Shown here one piece after another: positions 5,412 to 17,577 of a stretch of 62,787 nucleotides of DNA. Under the pieces are notes generated by a model. The model worked only from the letters and a program-made list of their open reading frames with translations, was not told where the DNA came from and did no database searches. Numbering within the stretch: the stretch's first letter is position 1; every line of letters begins with the position of its first letter. The translations under genes and the position numbers were made by a program. Source of the DNA: an uncultured beta proteobacterium (GTDB taxonomy: Bacteria > Pseudomonadota > Gammaproteobacteria > Burkholderiales > Burkholderiaceae_C); the NCBI GenBank assembly GCA_903897005.1, contig CAITZZ010000203.1:1-62787 (forward strand). Reading direction: 5' to 3'.

Positions 5412-7640
5412 ATGATCCCATCTGATTCTTCTTTCCGCTTTCACCGCAGCCTGCTGGCGCTCGCGCTGGCCGCCGCCTTCCTTCCCCTGCAGGCGCATGC
5501 CGAGGGCGATGATGCCACTCCGATCACCAGCGTCAGTTTTGGTCTGGGTCTGCAAAGCGGCTCCAGCGCCGACCACGCCCAGTACGGCCAGTACAACGGC
5601 CTGCGCTCAGACCGCAACTTCTTTGGCAACCTGGGTTTCAGTCACAGCCTGCGCGACACAGAAAAAAGCAACTGGCTGCAGATCGAGGGTTCCAACCTGC
5701 TGGGCGAGACCCGCGAACTCAGCCTGGTCAAGAAAGACCCCGGCAACTGGAAGCTCAGCGCCGCCTACGGTGAACTGGTGCGCTTTGAGCCCAACACGGT
5801 CAACACCGGCCTGCTGGGCGCGGGCTCCACGACGCCGCAAGTTGTCGCTCTGGCTGCTGGCAGCGCAAACGACCTCGAACTCAAGACCAAACGCAGCGCT
5901 CTGGGCCTGGGCTTTTCCAAAACCATCAACCCGGCACTGCAGTTTGACCTGGATCTGAAAAGCGAAAACAAGGACGGCGCAAGGCTCTCCGGTATTGGCA
6001 TCAACTGCCCCACCGTGATCGCTCCCGGTTGCCTGGGCACCACCCTCGCCAACACCGGCTGGGCCAGCCTGATGCTGCCCGAGCCCGTCAGCGCCAACCA
6101 CAGCCAGATCGAGGCACGCCTCACCTATGGCGCCGAAAAGCTGCGCTTCAATCTGGGCTACTACGGCTCTTTCTATCGCAACAACAACGCCGCGCTGAGC
6201 GGCACCATCCCGGGCAGCCTGTACAACCCGGTGGGCAGCCTGCTGCCCCTGAGCACCGGCCTGCGCGCTGTGCTGGGCCAGCCCGTGGCCTTGGCGCCGG
6301 ACAACCAGGCGCACCAGCTCGATTTGAGCGGCAGTTACGACCTCGGCAGCGCAACCCGCGCCAGCTTCAAGCTCGCACGCAGTGTGGCCACACAGAATGC
6401 AGACTTCGCCGCTGCCGGTTTGACCGGCGCCCCGGCTGGCGTAAGCAACCTGGACGGCCAGGTTCGCAACTCGCTGGCCAAGCTCAGCCTGAGCTCGCGC
6501 CCGGTGCGTCAGCTTTCCCTGCTGGCCGACCTGCGCTACGAAAAGAAGGAAGACCAGACACCGCTGGCCACTTACAACATCGAAGGCGCGGTACCTGCAC
6601 TGCCGGCGCTGCCCTTCACCTACACCAACCGCAATCTGTCGAGCCAGAAGGGCAACGCCAAGCTGCAGGCCAGCTGGCAGTTGAGCAGCGACTACCGCGC
6701 CACGCTGGGTGCGGATCGCGAAACGATTGACCGTGGCGAATTCACCGCCAGCAGCGCCATCTCGGGCATCAGCGCGCTGCGCCAGAAAACCAATGAAAAC
6801 ACGGTGCGCGCCGAACTGCGGGGTCGTCTGGCCGAGACTTTGACCGGCAGCGTGACAGTCTCGCGCAGCAAGCGCGACGGCTCCAACTGGCTGAAAGACA
6901 ACAGCGGCCTGGGCGTCACCGAAGTGATCAACCCGGCCGATCCGGTCACGGGCTTGCTGAACACCTCCGTCTTCATGCCAACGCTCTCAGATCGCCAGCG
7001 CAACAAGGTCAAGCTGTTTGCCGACTGGCAAGCCAGCGAGGCTTTGTCGCTCCAGCTCAGCGCCGAAAGCGGCAGCGACCGCTACACCACACCCAGCAGC
7101 TACGGCCTGCGTGACACCGGCGTGCATCAGTTCAGCCTGGACTGGGCCTATACGCTGTCTGACAACTGGGGCCTGACCGGCACCTTCTCGAGCAGCCAGC
7201 AAAGCCTGAACCAGGCGCGCGCCGCTGCTTACCTGATGGCCTTTGACAACAGCAACCTGGGTGCCAGCATCGGTGCCAACGGCAAGATCAACGCCAAGTT
7301 CGACGTCGGCGGCAGCCTGTCCTACGCCGGCGACAAGAGCGTCTATGGCCAGACCCTGGACAGCCTGGCTGGCAGCGACTCGGTCGCCCTGCTGGCCGCC
7401 ACCGGTGGCCTGCCTGACATCCTGTACAGCCAGACCGCGCTCAAGCTGTTTGGCAAGTACGCGCTGGAAAAAGGCTCGTCCGTGCGCGTTGACTTTGTGC
7501 ACCAGCGCAACAACGTCAACGACTGGACCTGGAGCTTGAACGGCGTGCCCTACGTCTATTCCGACGGCAGCACGGTGCTGCAAAAGGCCAACCAGAGCGT
7601 CAACGTCATCGGCGTGACCTACGTCTACCAGTTGCCTTAA
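5412..7640 (+). CDS. mtrB: MtrB/PioB-family decaheme-associated outer-membrane beta-barrel
   Basis: Signal peptide, long beta-rich sequence, position directly after mtrA. Confidence 0.9.
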   Translation: MIPSDSSFRFHRSLLALALAAAFLPLQAHAEGDDATPITSVSFGLGLQSGSSADHAQYGQYNGLRSDRNFFGNLGFSHSLRDTEKSNWLQIEGSNLLGETRELSLVKKDPGNWKLSAAYGELVRFEPNTVNTGLLGAGSTTPQVVALAAGSANDLELKTKRSALGLGFSKTINPALQFDLDLKSENKDGARLSGIGINCPTVIAPGCLGTTLANTGWASLMLPEPVSANHSQIEARLTYGAEKLRFNLGYYGSFYRNNNAALSGTIPGSLYNPVGSLLPLSTGLRAVLGQPVALAPDNQAHQLDLSGSYDLGSATRASFKLARSVATQNADFAAAGLTGAPAGVSNLDGQVRNSLAKLSLSSRPVRQLSLLADLRYEKKEDQTPLATYNIEGAVPALPALPFTYTNRNLSSQKGNAKLQASWQLSSDYRATLGADRETIDRGEFTASSAISGISALRQKTNENTVRAELRGRLAETLTGSVTVSRSKRDGSNWLKDNSGLGVTEVINPADPVTGLLNTSVFMPTLSDRQRNKVKLFADWQASEALSLQLSAESGSDRYTTPSSYGLRDTGVHQFSLDWAYTLSDNWGLTGTFSSSQQSLNQARAAAYLMAFDNSNLGASIGANGKINAKFDVGGSLSYAGDKSVYGQTLDSLAGSDSVALLAATGGLPDILYSQTALKLFGKYALEKGSSVRVDFVHQRNNVNDWTWSLNGVPYVYSDGSTVLQKANQSVNVIGVTYVYQLP

Positions 7641-7987
7641 ATCGGGTGTAGCTCCTCGCGAATCACTTCGCGCAGTGCTTCTTTGACGGCGTCCGCCTGC
7701 AGCCCGCGGCGCAGTGTCTCGTTGATGAGGGTCTGGTAGCCACGCCCACCGGCGCGTGCCTTGTAGGCGTGCAGCACCGCATCGTCGAGTTTGATCGTGA
7801 TGCGAGTCTTGCCAGTTGAAAGCATGGGCAAGACATCACCCAGTGGTCGCAGTTGGGCTGCCTCAGCCGGCGTCAACTCGGGGCTATCCTCGTCAATCGA
7901 GTCAGCCAGCGGAGCCGCCTCCACCGCCGCCCAGTCAATCGTTGGCGTCGAATCAGAGGGCATTAGCTTCAAATTTCTTTTGCTCAC
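7637..7987 (-). CDS. brnA: BrnA-family antitoxin
   Basis: C-terminal KTRITIKLDDAVLHAYKARAGGRGYQTLINETLRRGL is BrnA-like; GTG start; TTAA stop overlap with mtrB. Confidence 0.8.
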   Translation of the reverse strand: MSKRNLKLMPSDSTPTIDWAAVEAAPLADSIDEDSPELTPAEAAQLRPLGDVLPMLSTGKTRITIKLDDAVLHAYKARAGGRGYQTLINETLRRGLQADAVKEALREVIREELHPI

Positions 7988-8039
7988 GAATATTGGCCTT
8001 TCCCACAGCGTTCTTGTCCGGATTGCAGGTAAATTGCAT
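7953..8039 (-). pseudogene. brnT: BrnT toxin remnant with internal deletion (28 codons)
   Basis: My translation on minus strand: MQFTCNPDKNAVGKANIREQKKFEANAL*; start resembles BrnT N-termini (MxFxWDPxKxxxN), end resembles BrnT C-termini (ARKAxxREQ), middle missing; overlaps brnA start as in intact brnTA. Confidence 0.65.
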
Positions 8040-8050
8040 TGTCTGAATTG

Positions 8051-8070
8051 TGCATATTTTAATATGCACC
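8051..8070. promoter_or_regulatory. 20-bp palindrome GTGCATATT-TT-AATATGCAC, candidate BrnA operator
   Basis: Perfect 9-bp inverted repeat immediately upstream of the brnT remnant. Confidence 0.5.
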
Positions 8071-8081
8071 GTCAATCAAGG

Positions 8082-8117
8082 TCATCGGCGTGACCTACGG
8101 CTACCCGTTGCCCTGAT
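8082..8117 (+). repeat. Duplicated mtrB 3' tail (second copy of 7605-7640)
   Basis: 19-nt identity GTCATCGGCGTGACCTACG plus near-identical remainder through the stop; VIGVTYGYPLP* vs VIGVTYVYQLP*. Confidence 0.85.
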
Positions 8118-8245
8118 ACGCCCTTCATCGGCAATTAAGTCCGGTCGCCCATTCTTTAAGTAATAAATTTGTTGGTAGCGCTACCGCACGGCAGCCCCGT
8201 GCTCCGGGCCTTAGTCCGAAATAGCCCGTGGTATGTGCATTGCAG

Positions 8246-8259
8246 TTGATCTAAAGCAA
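8246..8259. promoter_or_regulatory. FNR-like box TTGATCTAAAGCAA with GAGAAT -10 at 8282-8287
   Basis: Same spacing (36 nt start-to-start) recurs upstream of copies 3 and 4. Confidence 0.65.
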
Positions 8260-8353
8260 ACTCGCGGCTTGTTGTGAAGGAGAGAATTCGTCGGTGTAAA
8301 CCCTTTGTAAAGTGTTTTTCCCGTGTGTTTTCTTAAGACTTAAGGAGTCTGAT

Positions 8354-11098
8354 GTGAAGTTATTTGACAAAAGCATGAATCAACCGCCCTCTCATTGGGC
8401 CAAGTTCGCTGCGGCGGGCTTGATTGTGGCTGCTGCCCTCGCCGGTTGCGGCGGCGGCAGTGACGGTGCAGCCGGCCCTGCTGGCGCGGCCGGACCCGCT
8501 GGTGCCGCTGGTGCTGCTGGCGCAACCGGACCGGCCGGCGCCAATGCCGTGGCGACGGTCCAGATCAAGGCGCTTTCGAGCGATCAATGGGCTGCACTGG
8601 CGCCCAAGGGTGAAGTTACCAAAGTCACTATCAGCAGTCCGCCTGTGGTCGAATTCAAGGTAACCGATGCCAACGGCTTCCCGGTCGTCGGTCTTGGCAA
8701 TACGTCCAAGAGCGCAACCGCCACCGTTGCCAGTTACCCGAATCTGGCATTTGCGCTAGCCAAGCTGGTGCCAGGCACCGCGAGCAGCCCCAGCAAGTGG
8801 GTTAGCTATATGGTGACCACCGTGCCCAGCACCACAGCGGCCCTGACCGCTACCCGTCCCTCCACCGACAACACCGGCACGCTGGTGGACAACGGTGACG
8901 GCAGCTACAAGTACACCTTCTACCGCGACATCACCAAGATCAAATCCGTGGTGGATGGCCTGACGCTGGTCAGCCCGAACGTCGCCGCCGACCTGGGCGA
9001 CCTGACTTACGAGCCCGCTTTGACACACCGCCTGACGGTCCAGATTTCGGGTAACGCCCCGGGAACCGGTAACAATACCGCCAATGCCGCAACGCTCATG
9101 CCGGGCGTTGCCATGGTCAATCCGGTCAACCTTATTTATGACTTCATTCCGGCCACCGGCAAAGCAGTCGCTGCAACCGACACGCAGCGCGAAGTTGTGA
9201 CGATTGCCAATTGCAACGAGTGTCACAACAAGCTCGCATTTCATGGCGGCGGACGCGTCGATACCCGTTACTGCGTGGTTTGCCACACCGATCAGCGCAA
9301 GTTTGGCTATGCCAACGTGGCGTCGGTCGCCGGTAAGTTCCCGGCGCTGACAGAAACCGCCACCGTCAATGCAACCACCGGCATTACCAGCTACAGCTAT
9401 TCCCCGGAAACCAGGATTGCCGACGGTGAAGTAGCAGGCAACTTCCCGATCATGGTCCACAAAATCCACAACGGTGCCGAACTGGTGAAGTCAAACTACA
9501 ACTACGCCAACGTGGCCTTCAATAACAAGGGCTATTCCATGCTGGGCGGCGGCCAGAAGATGTGCAGCAAGTGCCATGACAGCACCAAGGCAGCACAGGC
9601 CGACAACTGGAGTTCCAAGCCGAGTCGCCTGGCCTGCGGTTCCTGCCACGACGGCATCAACTGGGCCACCGGTCTGGGTTCGACACTGGCTGACAAAGCC
9701 GCCGCTACCGCTGTTGGCGCCGTGATGGCCACCACCGGCCACATCGGCAAAATGCAAACCAGTGACGCCACCTGCGTGCTGTGCCATGACGCCGCTGCGG
9801 TCAAGGTCTATCACCAGACTGAAAACAAGACCGCACACAATCCGACCATTGCTGCTGGCTTGAAGACCTTTACCTACGAGATCAAGTCCGCCGTGGTGAA
9901 CGCCACCAGCAACGATGTCACCATCGTGTTCAAGGTGAGCGCCGATGGCACGCCAGTCACCTTCCTGGCCCCGGCAGCCGCCATGGCCAATCCGCTGACT
10001 GGTTTCACGGGTAGCCCGGGCTTCCTGCTGGCCTATGCAACGGCGCAGGATGGCGTCGCAGCACCGATCGACTACAACAACACCGGCGTCAAACAGGCGC
10101 AAGCGGTCAGTGTTTCGATTGCCAACCTGCTTGACACGACCAAGACCGCTGACGGTTCACTGTCGGCCACGGCTGATGCCAGCGGCTACTACACCGCCAC
10201 CCTCAAGGGTACGGGCACCAAGAAGTTCCCGGTCGGTGCCACGCTGCGCGCGGTCGGCCTGCAAGGCTACTTCACGCAGAATTCACTCGGCGTTGGTCAA
10301 GCTGCCGTAGCGCGTCACGCGATCTCGGTGGTCAAGACTGTCACGGGTGATACGGCACGCCGTACCGTGGTGGATCCGACCAAGTGCTCGAGCTGCCACG
10401 AATGGTTTGAAGGCCATGGCGGCAACCGCGTCTATGAAACCCAGGTTTGCGTCATGTGCCACACGCCAGGTCTGGCGACCAGCGCCCGTGGCATCTCGGA
10501 TGCGGCCCTGATGGCCTATCCGTTCAGCGCCAACGATGTGAAGATCCTGGGCTACTGGAAGTTTGACAAGACCGTGCTGAACGCTGCCTTGAACTTCCCT
10601 GTCGTTACCAACAACTTCAAGGACATGATCCACGGCATCCACGCTGGTCGGGACCGCGTGACACCGTTTGTTGACGCACGCGACCGCACGCCCTCGGCCA
10701 TCACCCTTCTCGACTTCAAGAGAATGGACTTCCCGGGCAAGCTCAGCAAGTGTGAGAGCTGCCACACGACCGGCACGGCTGCGATTACCACCTTCAACAC
10801 GGTGCCCAAGGGTGCTTTGGCTTCGACCTACGAGTCCGTCAACGCAGCCTACATAGCAACGCCCACACCGGCGACTGCGAAAGCCGCTTTGAGCACAGCC
10901 AACCCGGAAGACAAGGTCACCACGCCTTTTGCCGCAGCCTGTGTCAGTTGCCATGACTCCGCGCTTGCCCAAGGTCACATGAGCCGCGAAGGTGGCCAGA
11001 TCAAGGTCAGCCGCAGTGCCATCAACCTTGCTGGCGAAGGTTGCGCCCTGTGCCACGGCGCTGGTGCAGACTTTGACCCGGTCAAGGCGCACAAGTAA
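8354..11098 (+). CDS. OmcA/MtrC-family decaheme outer-membrane lipoprotein cytochrome c (copy 2), collagen-like linker
   Basis: GTG start with SD AAGGAG; lipobox LAGC; 10 CXXCH motifs; nine Gly-X-Y triplets after lipobox. Confidence 0.9.
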   Translation: MKLFDKSMNQPPSHWAKFAAAGLIVAAALAGCGGGSDGAAGPAGAAGPAGAAGAAGATGPAGANAVATVQIKALSSDQWAALAPKGEVTKVTISSPPVVEFKVTDANGFPVVGLGNTSKSATATVASYPNLAFALAKLVPGTASSPSKWVSYMVTTVPSTTAALTATRPSTDNTGTLVDNGDGSYKYTFYRDITKIKSVVDGLTLVSPNVAADLGDLTYEPALTHRLTVQISGNAPGTGNNTANAATLMPGVAMVNPVNLIYDFIPATGKAVAATDTQREVVTIANCNECHNKLAFHGGGRVDTRYCVVCHTDQRKFGYANVASVAGKFPALTETATVNATTGITSYSYSPETRIADGEVAGNFPIMVHKIHNGAELVKSNYNYANVAFNNKGYSMLGGGQKMCSKCHDSTKAAQADNWSSKPSRLACGSCHDGINWATGLGSTLADKAAATAVGAVMATTGHIGKMQTSDATCVLCHDAAAVKVYHQTENKTAHNPTIAAGLKTFTYEIKSAVVNATSNDVTIVFKVSADGTPVTFLAPAAAMANPLTGFTGSPGFLLAYATAQDGVAAPIDYNNTGVKQAQAVSVSIANLLDTTKTADGSLSATADASGYYTATLKGTGTKKFPVGATLRAVGLQGYFTQNSLGVGQAAVARHAISVVKTVTGDTARRTVVDPTKCSSCHEWFEGHGGNRVYETQVCVMCHTPGLATSARGISDAALMAYPFSANDVKILGYWKFDKTVLNAALNFPVVTNNFKDMIHGIHAGRDRVTPFVDARDRTPSAITLLDFKRMDFPGKLSKCESCHTTGTAAITTFNTVPKGALASTYESVNAAYIATPTPATAKAALSTANPEDKVTTPFAAACVSCHDSALAQGHMSREGGQIKVSRSAINLAGEGCALCHGAGADFDPVKAHK

Positions 11099-11150
11099 AC
11101 CGGTGTACCGGAGACCGGGAGGCACTCTCCCGGTCTGTTTGACAAGCTCA

Positions 11151-11187
11151 CAACCCGGCTGCGGCGACGCAGCCGGGTTGTTTTTTT
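11151..11187 (+). terminator. Intrinsic terminator
   Basis: CAACCCGGCTGCG-gcga-CGCAGCCGGGTTG followed by T7. Confidence 0.92.
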
Positions 11188-11242
11188 GCGACTGGCAAGC
11201 CCAGTCTCAGGTCCAACCAATCGAAAACGAAGTGTCGCAAAG

Positions 11243-11256
11243 TTGATCTAAAGCAA
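11243..11256. promoter_or_regulatory. FNR-like box TTGATCTAAAGCAA with GAGAAT -10 at 11279-11284
   Basis: Identical to 8246-8259; identical spacing to -10. Confidence 0.65.
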
Positions 11257-11349
11257 ACCCACATCCTGGCTGCCCATGGAGAATCGCGCCTTGTGTAAAG
11301 GATTAGTAAAGTGTTTTTTGTGTGTAACTTGAGGCTTAAGGAGTCTGAC

Positions 11350-14082
11350 GTGAATTTTTTAAATCAAAGTAGAGGCAGGCCGTCCGCTCAATGGACCAAG
11401 CTCGCTGCTGCCAGCCTGCTGGCAGCAGCTGTCCTCGCCGGTTGCGGCGGCGGCAGCGATGGCGCACCGGGTGCTACCGGCGCCACCGGCCCAGCAGGTT
11501 CTGCTGGCGCCACCGGCCCCGCCGGTAGCAACGCCGTTGCCACGGTTCAAATCAAAGCCCTGTCGCCCGACCAGTGGGCTGCTGCCAATTTCTCCGCGAC
11601 CATCACCGGCGTTACCATCGCCAGCACGCCCGTGGTCAGCTTCAAGGTCACAGACGCCGCCACCGGTTACCCGGTCGTCGGCCTGGGCAGCAGTTCCAAG
11701 AGCGCAACCGCCACCGTTGCCAGTTACCCGAACGTGGCCTTTACCATAGCCAAACTGGTGCCCGGCACCAACGGCAGTCCGAGCAAGTGGGTCAGCTACA
11801 ACGTGACCACCGTGCCGACCACCACAGCAACCACCGTCCTGCCAGCCAAGCCCACCACTGACAACGCCGGCACCCTGGTTGACAACGGCGACGGCTCCTA
11901 CAAATACACCTTCTACCGCGATGTCACCAAGGTCAAGGACGTCGTGGCCGCAGCCGCTGCAGCAGCGACGGCCGCCAACGCCAACAACAAGGTGGCTGAT
12001 CTGGGTGATCTGACTTATGAGCCAGCGCTGACACACCGTGTCGTGCTGCAACTCTCGGGCAATGCCCCGGGTACCGGCACCAACACGGCAACCGCCCTTC
12101 AGTTGGTCCCGGGTGTCGCCCTGAAGAACCCGCTGAACGTGGCCTATGACTTCATCCCCGCCACCGGCAAGGCCGTCGCTGCCACCGACACGCAGCGCGA
12201 AATTGTTGCCAAGGCCGCTTGTCTGGAATGTCATAGCAAGTTTGCCATCCATGGCGGTGGCCGCCAGGATCCCAAGCTGTGCGTGACCTGCCACAACGAG
12301 CAGCGCAAGTACGGCAATGCCGAAGCCACGACAACGGCCACCGGCTACTCCGGCTTCACCTACAAGATCAACGACCGGGCGGTTGGCAACATGCCTGACT
12401 TCCTGCACCGCGTGCACATGGGCAAGGAACTGACCAAGACCGGCTACAACTACGCCAACGTCCTGTTCAACGAAATCACTTACCCGCAACCGGTGACGAA
12501 CTGCGTCAAGTGCCATGACGGCGCCAAGACCGCGCAGGGCGACAACTGGAAGAAAGTACCCAGCGCCACGGCCTGCGGCACCTGCCACGACGGCATCAAC
12601 TTCACCACCGGTCTGGGCACCACACTCATGGGCGCCACCACCGGCCACATCGGCAAGGCGCAAGCCAACGATTCCACCTGCGTGCTGTGCCATGACGCCG
12701 CCAGCAATGTGGTTTACCACGTGACGGTGGATCCTACCGGTGCCAATGGCCGCGGCGGCTATCCGCTCAACACCGCGACCGACGTGCCAACGGTAGGCTT
12801 CCCATCCGGGCAAGGTCCATCGATTCCAGTCGCCTCGCAGCTGAACATGCCGGCTGGCGTTTACAAGATCGGCTTTGAAATCAAGCAGGTCACCGTTGCC
12901 GGTGCTGCCGGTGCCAAGAAGGCCACCGTTGTTTACCGTATCCTGAAAGACGGCGCACCGGTCACATTGAACGCTACCGGCTTCCTGATGACCAATGTTG
13001 ACGGCACGCCTAGCGTCTATGTCGGTTATGGTCTGCCGCAAGATGGCATCACCACACCGGTGGACTGGAACGCCAGCATCAGTGCCACCGTGCTGCAGCT
13101 GCGCGACAAATCGGCCGGCAATAGCCAGACCGGACCTGATGCCAGTGGTTACTACACGGCAACCTTGGCCGCAGTGGTTCCTGACGCCGCCAAGATGGTC
13201 ACCGGCGCGATCGGCATCAACTACAACGGCTTTGTGCAACTCGGTCTGGCCGCCTACCCGAAGGGCATCCGCCTGCGCGAACCCGCCTTTGTCATGAAGC
13301 TTGCTGACGGTTTCACCGCCCGCCGCGCCATTGTCAGCAATGCCAAGTGCAATAGCTGCCACGGCCAGTTGGGTGTAGGCCCATCGTTCCACAGCGGCGC
13401 TCGTAACAACGGCGAAGGCTGCGCCATCTGCCACCAGGCCAATACTGCAACCGGCCATGTCGGCGTAGCGTACAGCTTCGGCGGCGGTTGGAACGTCGGT
13501 GTCAAGAACATGGTGCACTCGATCCATTCCGGCAAGAAGCGCGAACAGGCCTTCACCTACGAAGCAACAGCGGCCAACCCGCTTGGCTTCAAGGAAGTCA
13601 CCTACCCGGGTGTGCTGAGCAATTGCGAACAGTGCCACGTGGCTGGCAGCTATGACTTCAGCACCGCAGCCAACGCCGCCGCTGTGCCGAACCTGCTGTG
13701 GACCACCGATGCCAAGGGCAATATGACCAACGATGCAGTGACCAACCCGACCGGCATTGCCTCCATTGGACTGTCACCCTGGGTTACCACGCTGGGTAGA
13801 GGCCAGGTCAACTATGCCACCGACAATCTGGTGACCTCGCCAGTGACTTCGGCCTGCTTTGGTTGCCACGACAGCAAGATCGCCGTCGCGCACATGCAAC
13901 TCAATGGCGGTACGGTCTATGGCTCGGTGTCCGCGGTTTCCAGCGGTGGACCGCGCCCCGCCAATCCGTCGGCTTCTGCCGCGCCGGCAGCAACCACCTT
14001 CAGCTTTAGCAAGGTGGAGACCTGCATGGTCTGCCATGCCACCGGCAAGCTTGCCGACATCAAGGCAGTGCACGCCAAATAG
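11350..14082 (+). CDS. OmcA/MtrC-family decaheme outer-membrane lipoprotein cytochrome c (copy 3), collagen-like linker
   Basis: GTG start with SD AAGGAG; lipobox LAGC; 10 CXXCH motifs; eight Gly-X-Y triplets. Confidence 0.9.
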   Translation: MNFLNQSRGRPSAQWTKLAAASLLAAAVLAGCGGGSDGAPGATGATGPAGSAGATGPAGSNAVATVQIKALSPDQWAAANFSATITGVTIASTPVVSFKVTDAATGYPVVGLGSSSKSATATVASYPNVAFTIAKLVPGTNGSPSKWVSYNVTTVPTTTATTVLPAKPTTDNAGTLVDNGDGSYKYTFYRDVTKVKDVVAAAAAAATAANANNKVADLGDLTYEPALTHRVVLQLSGNAPGTGTNTATALQLVPGVALKNPLNVAYDFIPATGKAVAATDTQREIVAKAACLECHSKFAIHGGGRQDPKLCVTCHNEQRKYGNAEATTTATGYSGFTYKINDRAVGNMPDFLHRVHMGKELTKTGYNYANVLFNEITYPQPVTNCVKCHDGAKTAQGDNWKKVPSATACGTCHDGINFTTGLGTTLMGATTGHIGKAQANDSTCVLCHDAASNVVYHVTVDPTGANGRGGYPLNTATDVPTVGFPSGQGPSIPVASQLNMPAGVYKIGFEIKQVTVAGAAGAKKATVVYRILKDGAPVTLNATGFLMTNVDGTPSVYVGYGLPQDGITTPVDWNASISATVLQLRDKSAGNSQTGPDASGYYTATLAAVVPDAAKMVTGAIGINYNGFVQLGLAAYPKGIRLREPAFVMKLADGFTARRAIVSNAKCNSCHGQLGVGPSFHSGARNNGEGCAICHQANTATGHVGVAYSFGGGWNVGVKNMVHSIHSGKKREQAFTYEATAANPLGFKEVTYPGVLSNCEQCHVAGSYDFSTAANAAAVPNLLWTTDAKGNMTNDAVTNPTGIASIGLSPWVTTLGRGQVNYATDNLVTSPVTSACFGCHDSKIAVAHMQLNGGTVYGSVSAVSSGGPRPANPSASAAPAATTFSFSKVETCMVCHATGKLADIKAVHAK

Positions 14083-14131
14083 ACAGCAAGTTCACTTGCA
14101 GCAGCTCACCCCCGGGGTGAGCTACATTAAC

Positions 14132-14166
14132 AAAACCCGATGGTGCTAACACTGTCGGGTTTTTTC
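14132..14166 (+). terminator. Intrinsic terminator
   Basis: AAAACCCGA...TCGGGTTTTTT; preceded by a second perfect hairpin AGCTCACCCC/GGGGTGAGCT at 14103-14123. Confidence 0.8.
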
Positions 14167-14204
14167 AATTCATCGCCCAGTCAAGGCATCGTAGAAAGAG
14201 CATC

Positions 14205-14573
14205 ATGAAAACCCGTTTCGCTAAAACCACCCTGATCGCCCTGGCGCTTGGCCTGTCAGTTGGCCTCGCACTGGCAGCAGATAGCAAGCCGCCTGTTGCC
14301 GCCCCAGCAAAGACCAGTGCCAAGCCAGCACCTGCCGCCTCTGCGGCCAAAGTCACATTGGTAGACATCAACAGCGCCAGCAAGGACGAGCTCAAAACCC
14401 TGCCCGGTGTCAGCGACGAGGTGGCGGTCAAAATCATTGCCGGCCGGCCCTACCTCTCCAAAGCACACCTGCTGACGCGCAAGATCGTGGATGCGGGTGG
14501 CTATGAAAACCTCAGAACGCTGGTCATTGCAAAGCAGAAAAGCAGCCCGGAAGCGAAACCCGCCAAGAAATAA
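14205..14573 (+). CDS. Exported helix-hairpin-helix (ComEA-like) DNA-binding protein
   Basis: Signal peptide; VDINSASKDELKTLPGVSDEVAVKIIAGRPY HhH signature. Confidence 0.8.
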   Translation: MKTRFAKTTLIALALGLSVGLALAADSKPPVAAPAKTSAKPAPAASAAKVTLVDINSASKDELKTLPGVSDEVAVKIIAGRPYLSKAHLLTRKIVDAGGYENLRTLVIAKQKSSPEAKPAKK

Positions 14574-14628
14574 GTGCTTGCGAACTCACTGGCGGCGGCC
14601 GGGATTTACATTCCTAAGCTCACCAAGT

Positions 14629-14642
14629 TTGATCTAAGACAA
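14629..14642. promoter_or_regulatory. FNR-like box TTGATCTAAGACAA with GAGAAT -10 at 14665-14670
   Basis: Same geometry as upstream of copies 2 and 3. Confidence 0.6.
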
Positions 14643-14736
14643 ACTTGACTCAGGTCAGGCCATGGAGAATCGCGCGGTGTAAAGTGAATGTAAAGTGGAA
14701 ATTTTCTATAAATTGTTAACGCCATAGGAGGCAATA

Positions 14737-17577
14737 GTGAAGCAAATAGAACTGTCAAGCAAGACAAGATCCTCGCCGCATTGGACCAAACTCGCTGCTG
14801 CGAGCCTGGTGGCGCTGTTCATCGCCGGTTGCGGCGGCGGCAGCGACGCCCCCGTAGTCACGCCACCCGTCGTGACCCCGCCGGTCGTGACGCCACCTGT
14901 GGTTGTCGTTCCTCCCGTGGATGCGCCCCCCGCCGGCACCGCCGTGTTGACGGCCGCTGCCGCGAGCCCCGCCACCACCAATACCGCTGCCAACCCGGCG
15001 CAGGCCTTTGGTCTGGTCTTCAAGGCCGGCGCCAATGCAGTGACAGTTCAAAGCCCGCCCGTGGTGCATTTCACCGTGATTGGCTCGGACGGCAAGTTTG
15101 TGCCCGGTCTGTCCTTGGTCGCTGGATCAGCAGCCGCTGCCACAGCGGATGCCAATTGCGGTGGTAACAATATCGCTGCTTTCGCCATCGCCAAGTTTGA
15201 TGGTAGCAACTGGCAGAACCTGATTTCGCGCCAGCGCCTGGACACCAGCAGCACCACACCGGCTGTCAAGTACGCCGTGGCCGAGGGCACAGCAGACCCG
15301 AAACCGACCGCGTACAACGCAAGCGCGGCAACCGCCAGAGCCAACCCGGCGACGGCGCTGGCCGATCCGACGACGCGTATCGTCGGCATGCTTGAAGAAA
15401 ACGCAGCCGGTGGTTATTACACCTACCGCTTCGCCACTGACGTGACAACGCCGCTGCTCCTTAAAGACGCGGTCGCTGGTCGCAGTGTGGCTGCCACGGC
15501 AGCCACCAGTTCCGCCCCGGCCTATCAGAACCGCATTTCCAATAACGGCAACGTGGCAGTGAAGGACGGCAAGACCATTCACCGCGTCGGCGCACAACTG
15601 TGCTACACCGACCCGGTCACCAAGGCCAAGGTCGTTGTTAACCCCACGGTTGACTTCACATTGGATGCCAAAGGTGTTGCGACTCCAGTCAAAGCAGCGG
15701 ATGGCTCACTTGCACTTGCCACCAAAGTGGTTGGGATTGAAAGCTGTAACACTTGCCACGCTCCGCTGGCCGCACACGGTACCCGCGTAGAACCGAACTA
15801 CTGCGTTGTCTGCCACAACAAGGGTAGCCTTGATTTCAACACCAACAACCCAATCGACCTGAAGAACATGATCCACCGACTTCACGGAGGCAAGAATGTT
15901 CTGACCAAGGACTACAAGATCGTCAACCTGGTGTTCAAGGCAACCGACCCGGTGACCAAAGAGGTTTCAGGCACCGCCTTCCCGCAGGACGTGAAGAACT
16001 GCACAACCTGCCACGAAACCAAGTACGCAGCGCAAGCCGCCAACTGGAAGACGGCACCATCGGTCAGTGCTTGCGGCTCCTGCCATGATGGTATTGACTT
16101 TGCTACCGGCCTTGGATTGACTTTGGCTGATGCCGAGAAGAACAAGCTGACAACCACGCTGGTCAAACTCACTGCATCGGCCTACGGTCACGTGGGCGGT
16201 CGTCAAGCTGACGACTCCAAGTGCGTTCTGTGCCATAGCGCAGCAGACACCCCGGTGTACCACGCTGCGGGCGTCAAGACCGAGCACAACGCGACACTGA
16301 TCGCCGGTGCCGCCGAGATTGCTTACGAACTCGGTAGCGTGACCATCAATGCCAGCAAACAGCCGGTCATCAGCTTCAAGATCACCAAGAATGGCACGCC
16401 TGTGACAGCACTGGCCGCAGCCACAACGGTTGTCAACACCACGGGTGCCACGGTACTGAATCCTGCCTACGAAATGATCCCGGGCTTTGCCAACGGGCCG
16501 GCGCTGTACGTTGCGTACGCGGTGCCACAGGACGGCGTTGCTGCACCTGCGGACTTCAATGCCAGGTCGAACGTGAACCTCAATACGCTGTTGCTGCCTG
16601 ACGGCTCGGCACTCAAGACGGGCTCTGTTACCGGACCGGATGCGGCAGGCTTCTTTAGCGCCACCCTGACCGGCACGACTGCCAGCCCGATCACCGTTCC
16701 TTCAACGGCAACCATGGTGACCGGCGCCATCATCGGCACCTTCCTGCAAAAGACAGTCGCGGCATACCCGTATACGGCTGCCAACGTGACGGTGCTGCCG
16801 GTATCCTCGGCCTCCGGTGGTCTGGTCATCAAGTCGATGCTGAAGCAAAAAGTGGCAACCGGCTTCACTGGTCGCCGTGCCATTGTGGACACCGCCAAGT
16901 GCAATAGCTGCCACGAGCAACTGGGTACGGACCCGGCCTTCCACGGTGGCGCCCGCAATGACGCAACCGCCTGCGCCATCTGCCACAACGTGAACATGAG
17001 CAGCAACGGCTGGACTGGCGACTCCAGGACTTTCGTGCACGCTGTTCACGGCCAGACCGCCCTGACCGCTTCCAGCAGGAAGCGTACTGTGCCCTACACA
17101 TGGACCGCTGTGTCGGCTGCCAACAACTACTCCAAGATTGTCTACCCGGGTGATCTGAAGAAGTGCTCTGCCTGCCACCTGGACGGCACCTATGACTACA
17201 CCGCTAGCGCCTACACGCCAGCGCTGCTGGCCAAAATGGTGGATGTGACAGTTGCCAGTGGCACGCCAAGCGCCACCAGCAACACGCACCGCAACTCGCC
17301 CTACATCGTTGGCGGCACGGCTTACGGCTCAGGCTTCAGCTTTGCTCCGGCCACCGGTGTGACGGTTGAAGCAGCTGCCACAACCAAGGTGAACTCGCCG
17401 ATCGCAGCGGCCTGCTTCTCCTGCCACGACACAGCCACGGCACAGACGCACATGGCAAACGACGGCGGTGGTGCGATCTACGAAGCACGGGCAACCGCGC
17501 TGGCCAAGGCCGAACGCTGCCTGGATTGCCACGCTGCTGGCAAGGCATCACCGATCAAGACCAAGCACAAACAATAA
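14737..17577 (+). CDS. OmcA/MtrC-family decaheme outer-membrane lipoprotein cytochrome c (copy 4), Pro/Val-rich linker
   Basis: GTG start; lipobox FIAGC; 10 CXXCH motifs; PVVTP repeats after lipobox. Confidence 0.9.
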   Translation: MKQIELSSKTRSSPHWTKLAAASLVALFIAGCGGGSDAPVVTPPVVTPPVVTPPVVVVPPVDAPPAGTAVLTAAAASPATTNTAANPAQAFGLVFKAGANAVTVQSPPVVHFTVIGSDGKFVPGLSLVAGSAAAATADANCGGNNIAAFAIAKFDGSNWQNLISRQRLDTSSTTPAVKYAVAEGTADPKPTAYNASAATARANPATALADPTTRIVGMLEENAAGGYYTYRFATDVTTPLLLKDAVAGRSVAATAATSSAPAYQNRISNNGNVAVKDGKTIHRVGAQLCYTDPVTKAKVVVNPTVDFTLDAKGVATPVKAADGSLALATKVVGIESCNTCHAPLAAHGTRVEPNYCVVCHNKGSLDFNTNNPIDLKNMIHRLHGGKNVLTKDYKIVNLVFKATDPVTKEVSGTAFPQDVKNCTTCHETKYAAQAANWKTAPSVSACGSCHDGIDFATGLGLTLADAEKNKLTTTLVKLTASAYGHVGGRQADDSKCVLCHSAADTPVYHAAGVKTEHNATLIAGAAEIAYELGSVTINASKQPVISFKITKNGTPVTALAAATTVVNTTGATVLNPAYEMIPGFANGPALYVAYAVPQDGVAAPADFNARSNVNLNTLLLPDGSALKTGSVTGPDAAGFFSATLTGTTASPITVPSTATMVTGAIIGTFLQKTVAAYPYTAANVTVLPVSSASGGLVIKSMLKQKVATGFTGRRAIVDTAKCNSCHEQLGTDPAFHGGARNDATACAICHNVNMSSNGWTGDSRTFVHAVHGQTALTASSRKRTVPYTWTAVSAANNYSKIVYPGDLKKCSACHLDGTYDYTASAYTPALLAKMVDVTVASGTPSATSNTHRNSPYIVGGTAYGSGFSFAPATGVTVEAAATTKVNSPIAAACFSCHDTATAQTHMANDGGGAIYEARATALAKAERCLDCHAAGKASPIKTKHKQ

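Follow-up and report, generated by a model that had tools for sequence, protein, structure and literature searches.

Organization of the mtrB-omcA region

The window (the whole stretch of DNA that was analysed, 62,787 nucleotides) carries an intact mtrB gene (5412..7640, plus strand) encoding a 742 aa outer-membrane porin (MtrB/PioB; PF11854, E = 3e-135 over 53-741), which is present as a single copy in the genome and forms the anchor of the insertion described here. Behind it, on the minus strand, lies an intact 116 aa antitoxin gene, brnA (7637..7987), whose product matched the BrnA antitoxin domain of the BrnTA type II toxin-antitoxin (TA) system (PF14384, E = 4.8e-14, above cut-off) and which has 96% nucleotide identity to its counterpart in a close relative (locus L050). 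The cognate toxin gene is reduced to a relic of 28 aa (7953..8039, minus strand; MQFTCNPDKNAVGKANIREQKKFEANAL), recognised by comparison with the 91 aa BrnT of L050 (PF04365, E = 9.5e-14). With respect to the latter, an internal in-frame deletion of ~189 nt has removed about 63 of the 91 codons; the remnant gave no Pfam match, and an intact BrnT ribonuclease toxin is absent upstream of brnA. Judged from this gene structure, the window holds what is an orphan-antitoxin relic, with a presumably dead brnT. Further copies of the brnTA cassette were not found in the window genome, and a search of plasmids for similar DNA gave no match.

Sequence inspection placed the proximal junction inside the last Pro codon of mtrB, between TTGCC and TTAA, so that the TTAA of the cassette provides the stop of mtrB and, on the opposite strand, that of brnA. 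Upstream of brnT, a near-palindrome (8050..8069, GTGCATATTTTAATATGCAC) that is conserved in L050 is a candidate BrnA operator/promoter. Native mtrB-omcA intergenic DNA (8117..8311; 85% identity to L050, 77% to two other relatives, L029 and L030) leads into the first omcA-like decaheme cytochrome gene of an array (8312..11098, plus strand, 10 CXXCH motifs).

Within the array (window 8312-17577), the first omcA after mtrB in the window and L050 is a different paralogue from that in L029 and L030 (identity about 71% between the two pairs, 85-88% within them), hence the omcA array has gained or lost a member beside the TA site. Genes for a small secreted protein with a helix-hairpin-helix (ComEA-like) look repeatedly follow omcA genes in these clusters (window 14205-14573; L050:20153-20641; L030:6299-6802).

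The end of mtrB is present twice. Positions 7600-7636 and 8076-8112 of the window align without gaps at 92% identity across 37 nt (spacing 476; blastn-short E = 1e-9 in a 4.5-kb subject) and have in common an identical 19-nt run (GTCATCGGCGTGACCTACG). The proximal copy (7605..7640, plus strand) reads VIGVTYVYQLP and stops with TAA; the distal copy (8081..8116, plus strand), the stranded ancestral mtrB tail (see below), reads VIGVTYGYPLP and stops with TGA. The repeat had been noted in a preliminary description of this DNA, and its 19-nt identity, common frame and stop position, and the location of brnA in between were all borne out; the coordinates given there hold for the proximal copy (7605-7640), whereas the distal one, placed at 8082-8117, is really found one base leftward, at 8081-8116. 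An assembly artefact is disfavoured, because L050, which was assembled independently, has the same architecture.

Empty and intact sites in close relatives

Close relatives were found through a scan of species genomes. In L050, the MtrB of which is 97% identical to that of the window, an intact brnTA pair (PF14384, PF04365) lies between mtrB and a second tail (36/37 identical), and both junctions are common to L050 and the window. In L029 (85%) the site is empty, with no insert after mtrB. Aligned to the native mtrB end of L029, the distal tail of the window and the 36 nt downstream of it match in an unbroken stretch of 72 nt at 80.6% identity. Since the distal copy thus runs on into the same DNA as the lone mtrB end of L029, it is the original end of mtrB, and the proximal end is the newcomer.

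Two explanations had been put forward in the preliminary description. The first, by which a TA cassette entered at the end of mtrB and the tail was reconstituted, proved essentially right, as indicated by L029 with its empty site, L050 with its intact cassette, and the parallel insertions found elsewhere; it had left unspecified which copy was new, and can now be refined in that the distal copy is ancestral and the proximal one came with the insertion. According to the second, the distal copy would be what remains of an additional mtrB that was lost, which is conceivable inasmuch as some mtr clusters have paralogues and the array of omcA genes here is an expanded one. The genome, however, has one mtrB, the distal copy continues into DNA colinear with the mtrB-omcA intergenic region of the single-copy site in L029, and a longer second mtrB was never found at this site in relatives, which have tails of 14-130 nt only. 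We consider such an origin extremely improbable.

Other cassettes between mtrB and omcA

Among other Rhodoferax-like genomes, the gap between mtrB and omcA harbours unrelated TA or nucleotidyltransferase genes (MntA-HepT, HicBA, YjjJ-like HipA, HipBA and NTP_transf_8), and some of these inserts are followed by stranded mtrB tails of 14-130 nt. By our own count, inserts are present in nine of ~26 sampled mtrB loci in which an omcA-type gene comes next. L032 carries MntA-HepT flanked by two identical 40-nt mtrB tails (40/40), followed by HicBA. Its hepT (L032:3829-4233) lacks a stop of its own, and the reading frame runs on through the stranded mtrB tail to the stop codon of that tail, ending in ATENDGVIAVTYSYQLP, a read-through that is predicted to give a HepT-MtrB-tail fusion. 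A decayed YjjJ-like HipA gene precedes a 130-nt stranded mtrB piece (85%) in L088, and an intact HipA-like gene (462 aa) precedes one of 50 nt (90%) in L100. HipBA of L102, on the minus strand, is without a stranded tail. A nucleotidyltransferase of 335-353 aa (NTP_transf_8) is present in L030, L050 and L098/L039, in the last case without a stranded tail. One further candidate, a partial mtrB at a contig start (genome G333, L089), was rejected as a stranded tail, being a truncated paralogue beside a TolC-like gene.

A distal repeat without brnTA had been named beforehand as evidence that would speak against an insertion. Taken literally, such repeats occur in L032, L088 and L100, yet each of these loci has a different TA gene at that place, and they extend the insertion reading rather than refute it.

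Some sites are stacked. From mtrB onwards, L050 has brnTA, a tail, the nucleotidyltransferase and a 14-nt tail, while L030 shows the opposite order (mtrB, nucleotidyltransferase, degenerate tail, brnA remnant). The remnant in L030 consists of fifty-odd bases of decayed brnA that abut the degenerate mtrB tail (about 1170-1290 nt past the mtrB stop) and, as far as its sequence can be read, is the footprint of a lost brnTA. The nucleotidyltransferases of L050 and L039 are 90% identical and their mtrB genes only 71%, which indicates that this gene reached the same site horizontally.

Genus-wide survey of flanking repeats

Direct repeats spanning a gene (at least 25 nt, at least 85% identity) were searched for in 90 genomes of the genus around the best 30 loci each of the BrnT, HepT, NTP_transf_8, HicA and ParE families, and, as controls, around the best 30 loci each of RidA, acetyltransferase and glycosyltransferase 2. 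They flanked BrnT in 7/30, HepT in 3/30, NTP_transf_8 in 6/30, HicA in 5/30 and ParE in 4/30 cases, and were 25-296 nt long. Overall, 25/150 TA-type loci versus 0/90 controls were spanned (one-sided Fisher p = 3e-6, a somewhat optimistic value as the 25 loci are not all independent and L145/L152 look like one event), a contrast that may reflect recent acquisition in general and not TA genes specifically, the controls being conserved or generally distributed genes.

Several of the repeats are 3' gene tails with the whole gene on one side: that of a MacB-like permease (L138), those of a PotA-like ATPase in two genomes (L145, L152) and of lpdA in two genomes (L276, L277), and others (L178, L198), all named from reading their translations. 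At L276 and L277, the lpdA tail (209-460 nt) is found on either side of a HicA locus, and its differences are nearly all third-position. In the PotA-like pair (L145/L152) the tails resemble each other to about the same degree whether compared within one genome or across the two, and donor and recipient could not be told apart. Two 75-nt attC-like repeats (GCCTAAC...GTTAGGC; L130:310-384 and 955-1029) surround a BrnT gene that, from its sequence context, is apparently an integron cassette and thus a separate phenomenon, though counted in the 25; mobile or repetitive DNA may account for the repeats of L129, L133, L206 and L215.

The recurrent use of one target could be explained by site-specific, integron-like recombination, with the mtrB tail serving as attachment site and the cassettes being excised and reinserted as circles. 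Although several families do use the same target, the cassettes are ordered differently in L050 and L030, and the window and L029 resemble clean single-tail products, the cassettes come without an integrase, the tail length is variable, and there is no core common to mtrB, lpdA, PotA-like and other targets. At mtrB no resemblance to dif or attC was noted, and inspection of the ORFs and sequences between mtrB and omcA revealed neither an integrase nor attC sites. We regard this route as quite improbable.

Codon positions and the route of insertion

The position of differences within codons was used to approach the origin of the two copies. A duplicated, stranded tail would drift evenly over the codon positions and the intact copy mostly at the third, so that under duplication at most about half of the differences are expected there. 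Between intact and stranded tails, differences at positions 1/2/3 amounted to 30/25/98 (98/153 at the third, 64%; p = 3e-4 for an excess over 50%). The signal beyond 50% stems from the two lpdA loci (L276/L277; 51/61, p = 5e-8); the cases without lpdA (47/92) are compatible with either mechanism, and at mtrB the tails offer too little sequence or too few cases to decide (third-position differences 12/21 in L088 and 1/3 in the window). For lpdA at least, the two copies gathered their differences while functional in different genomes, and were brought together afterwards.

These numbers bear on a long target duplication, in which a cassette entering at the end of mtrB would come to lie between two copies of the recipient's own tail, as reported for restriction-modification systems. 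The geometry would be the same, and the identical or near-identical tails of L032 (40/40) and L050 (36/37), the codon-position data outside lpdA, and the long direct target repeats that flank inserts (33-130 nt at mtrB and as much as ~460 nt at other loci) all fit. An origin of both repeats from one recipient sequence is, however, compatible with the data at mtrB and contradicted at lpdA, where the bias lies far over the 50% ceiling; as a general mechanism, pure target duplication was ruled out at these loci and not elsewhere. Further arguments against it are the range of tail lengths (14 to about 460 nt) and that, to our knowledge, insertion with long target duplication has not been linked to any enzyme. 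We deem it unlikely, though still a serious contender.

We favour one-sided homologous (homology-facilitated illegitimate) recombination as the route by which brnTA and a fresh mtrB end were probably placed behind mtrB. The incoming DNA, a 3' part of mtrB followed by a TA unit, would be anchored in mtrB by homology at one end, and its far end would be joined illegitimately a short distance upstream of the recipient's stop codon. The outcome would be a whole mtrB, an added TA unit, and a join marked by a stranded tail of arbitrary length; in the window, the recipient's last ~33 nt of mtrB would have been left beyond the cassette, continuing into the original intergenic DNA. Repeated use of the same anchor would produce mtrB-tail-TA-tail-TA-tail stacks. 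The window cassette later lost most of brnT and retains the orphan antitoxin.

In all tail cases the geometry fits a homology junction in the anchor and an illegitimate one at the other end, and copies that diverged in different genomes, as at lpdA, are what such a route would lead one to expect. Against one-sided recombination count the inserts without a stranded tail (the L098/L039 nucleotidyltransferase and L102 HipBA) and that no donor genome was found for any of the mtrB cases; moreover, the mtrB data fit it and target duplication alike and do not separate the two. Homology-facilitated illegitimate recombination has been proposed for the immunity-gene arrays of the Vibrio type VI secretion system (T6SS; PMC5361080) and was demonstrated, at low frequency, in conjugation experiments with E. 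coli (PMC3240628). More tentatively, the 3' ends of conserved genes, mtrB foremost, could be recurrent docking points, with homology to the tail alone sufficing for TA modules to be stacked there and exchanged between species. Chromosomal TA modules would then spread in an integrase-free, integron-like manner, and each stranded tail would stand for one past acquisition.

Comparison with known systems and significance

The locus is reminiscent of the T6SS effector-immunity arrays of Vibrio cholerae (PMC5361080), where new toxic/immunity modules are found directly behind an anchor gene, earlier modules and the 3' ends of genes have been pushed downstream, and stacks form without an integrase. 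There, however, the toxic C-terminus of the anchor is swapped, whereas here the electron-transfer porin remains unchanged and the cargo is made up of TA modules from several, unrelated families. Rhs loci with orphan 3' tips (cited in PMC5361080) likewise have displaced gene ends in a row behind a constant gene, but those tips encode toxin domains and the mtrB tails are non-functional relics. Restriction-modification systems show long, variable target duplications, on the order of 100 bp (PMC3874152, PMC3031569; Nobusato 2000 and Furuta 2010, reviewed in PMC3874152). The likeness lies in addiction-type units between long, variable direct target repeats without a mobile element; the difference, in that here one target is used repeatedly and the codon-position bias points, in some cases, to an inter-genome origin of the two copies. 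With chromosomal integrons the mtrB site has in common TA cassettes stacked beside an anchor, the newest probably proximal, but it is without integrase and attC sites. In a literature search of incomplete coverage, neither one-sided recombination nor long target duplication was reported for TA modules. While the kind of route is already known, a pattern in which TA modules are acquired at the 3' ends of genes and the former end persists as a scar appears to be new.

The different TA pairs at the same mtrB spot in several relatives, together with similar scars across the genus, suggest how chromosomal TA modules move without an attached mobile element or mobility machinery of their own. Stranded gene tails are countable footprints of acquisition, which give its direction and order and, through synonymous differences, tell whether DNA from another genome took part. 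The mtr electron-transfer locus offers a natural series (empty, single, stacked and decayed) on which the mechanism can be tested, and it also suggests that a respiratory cluster passed on horizontally might be stabilised by TA modules.
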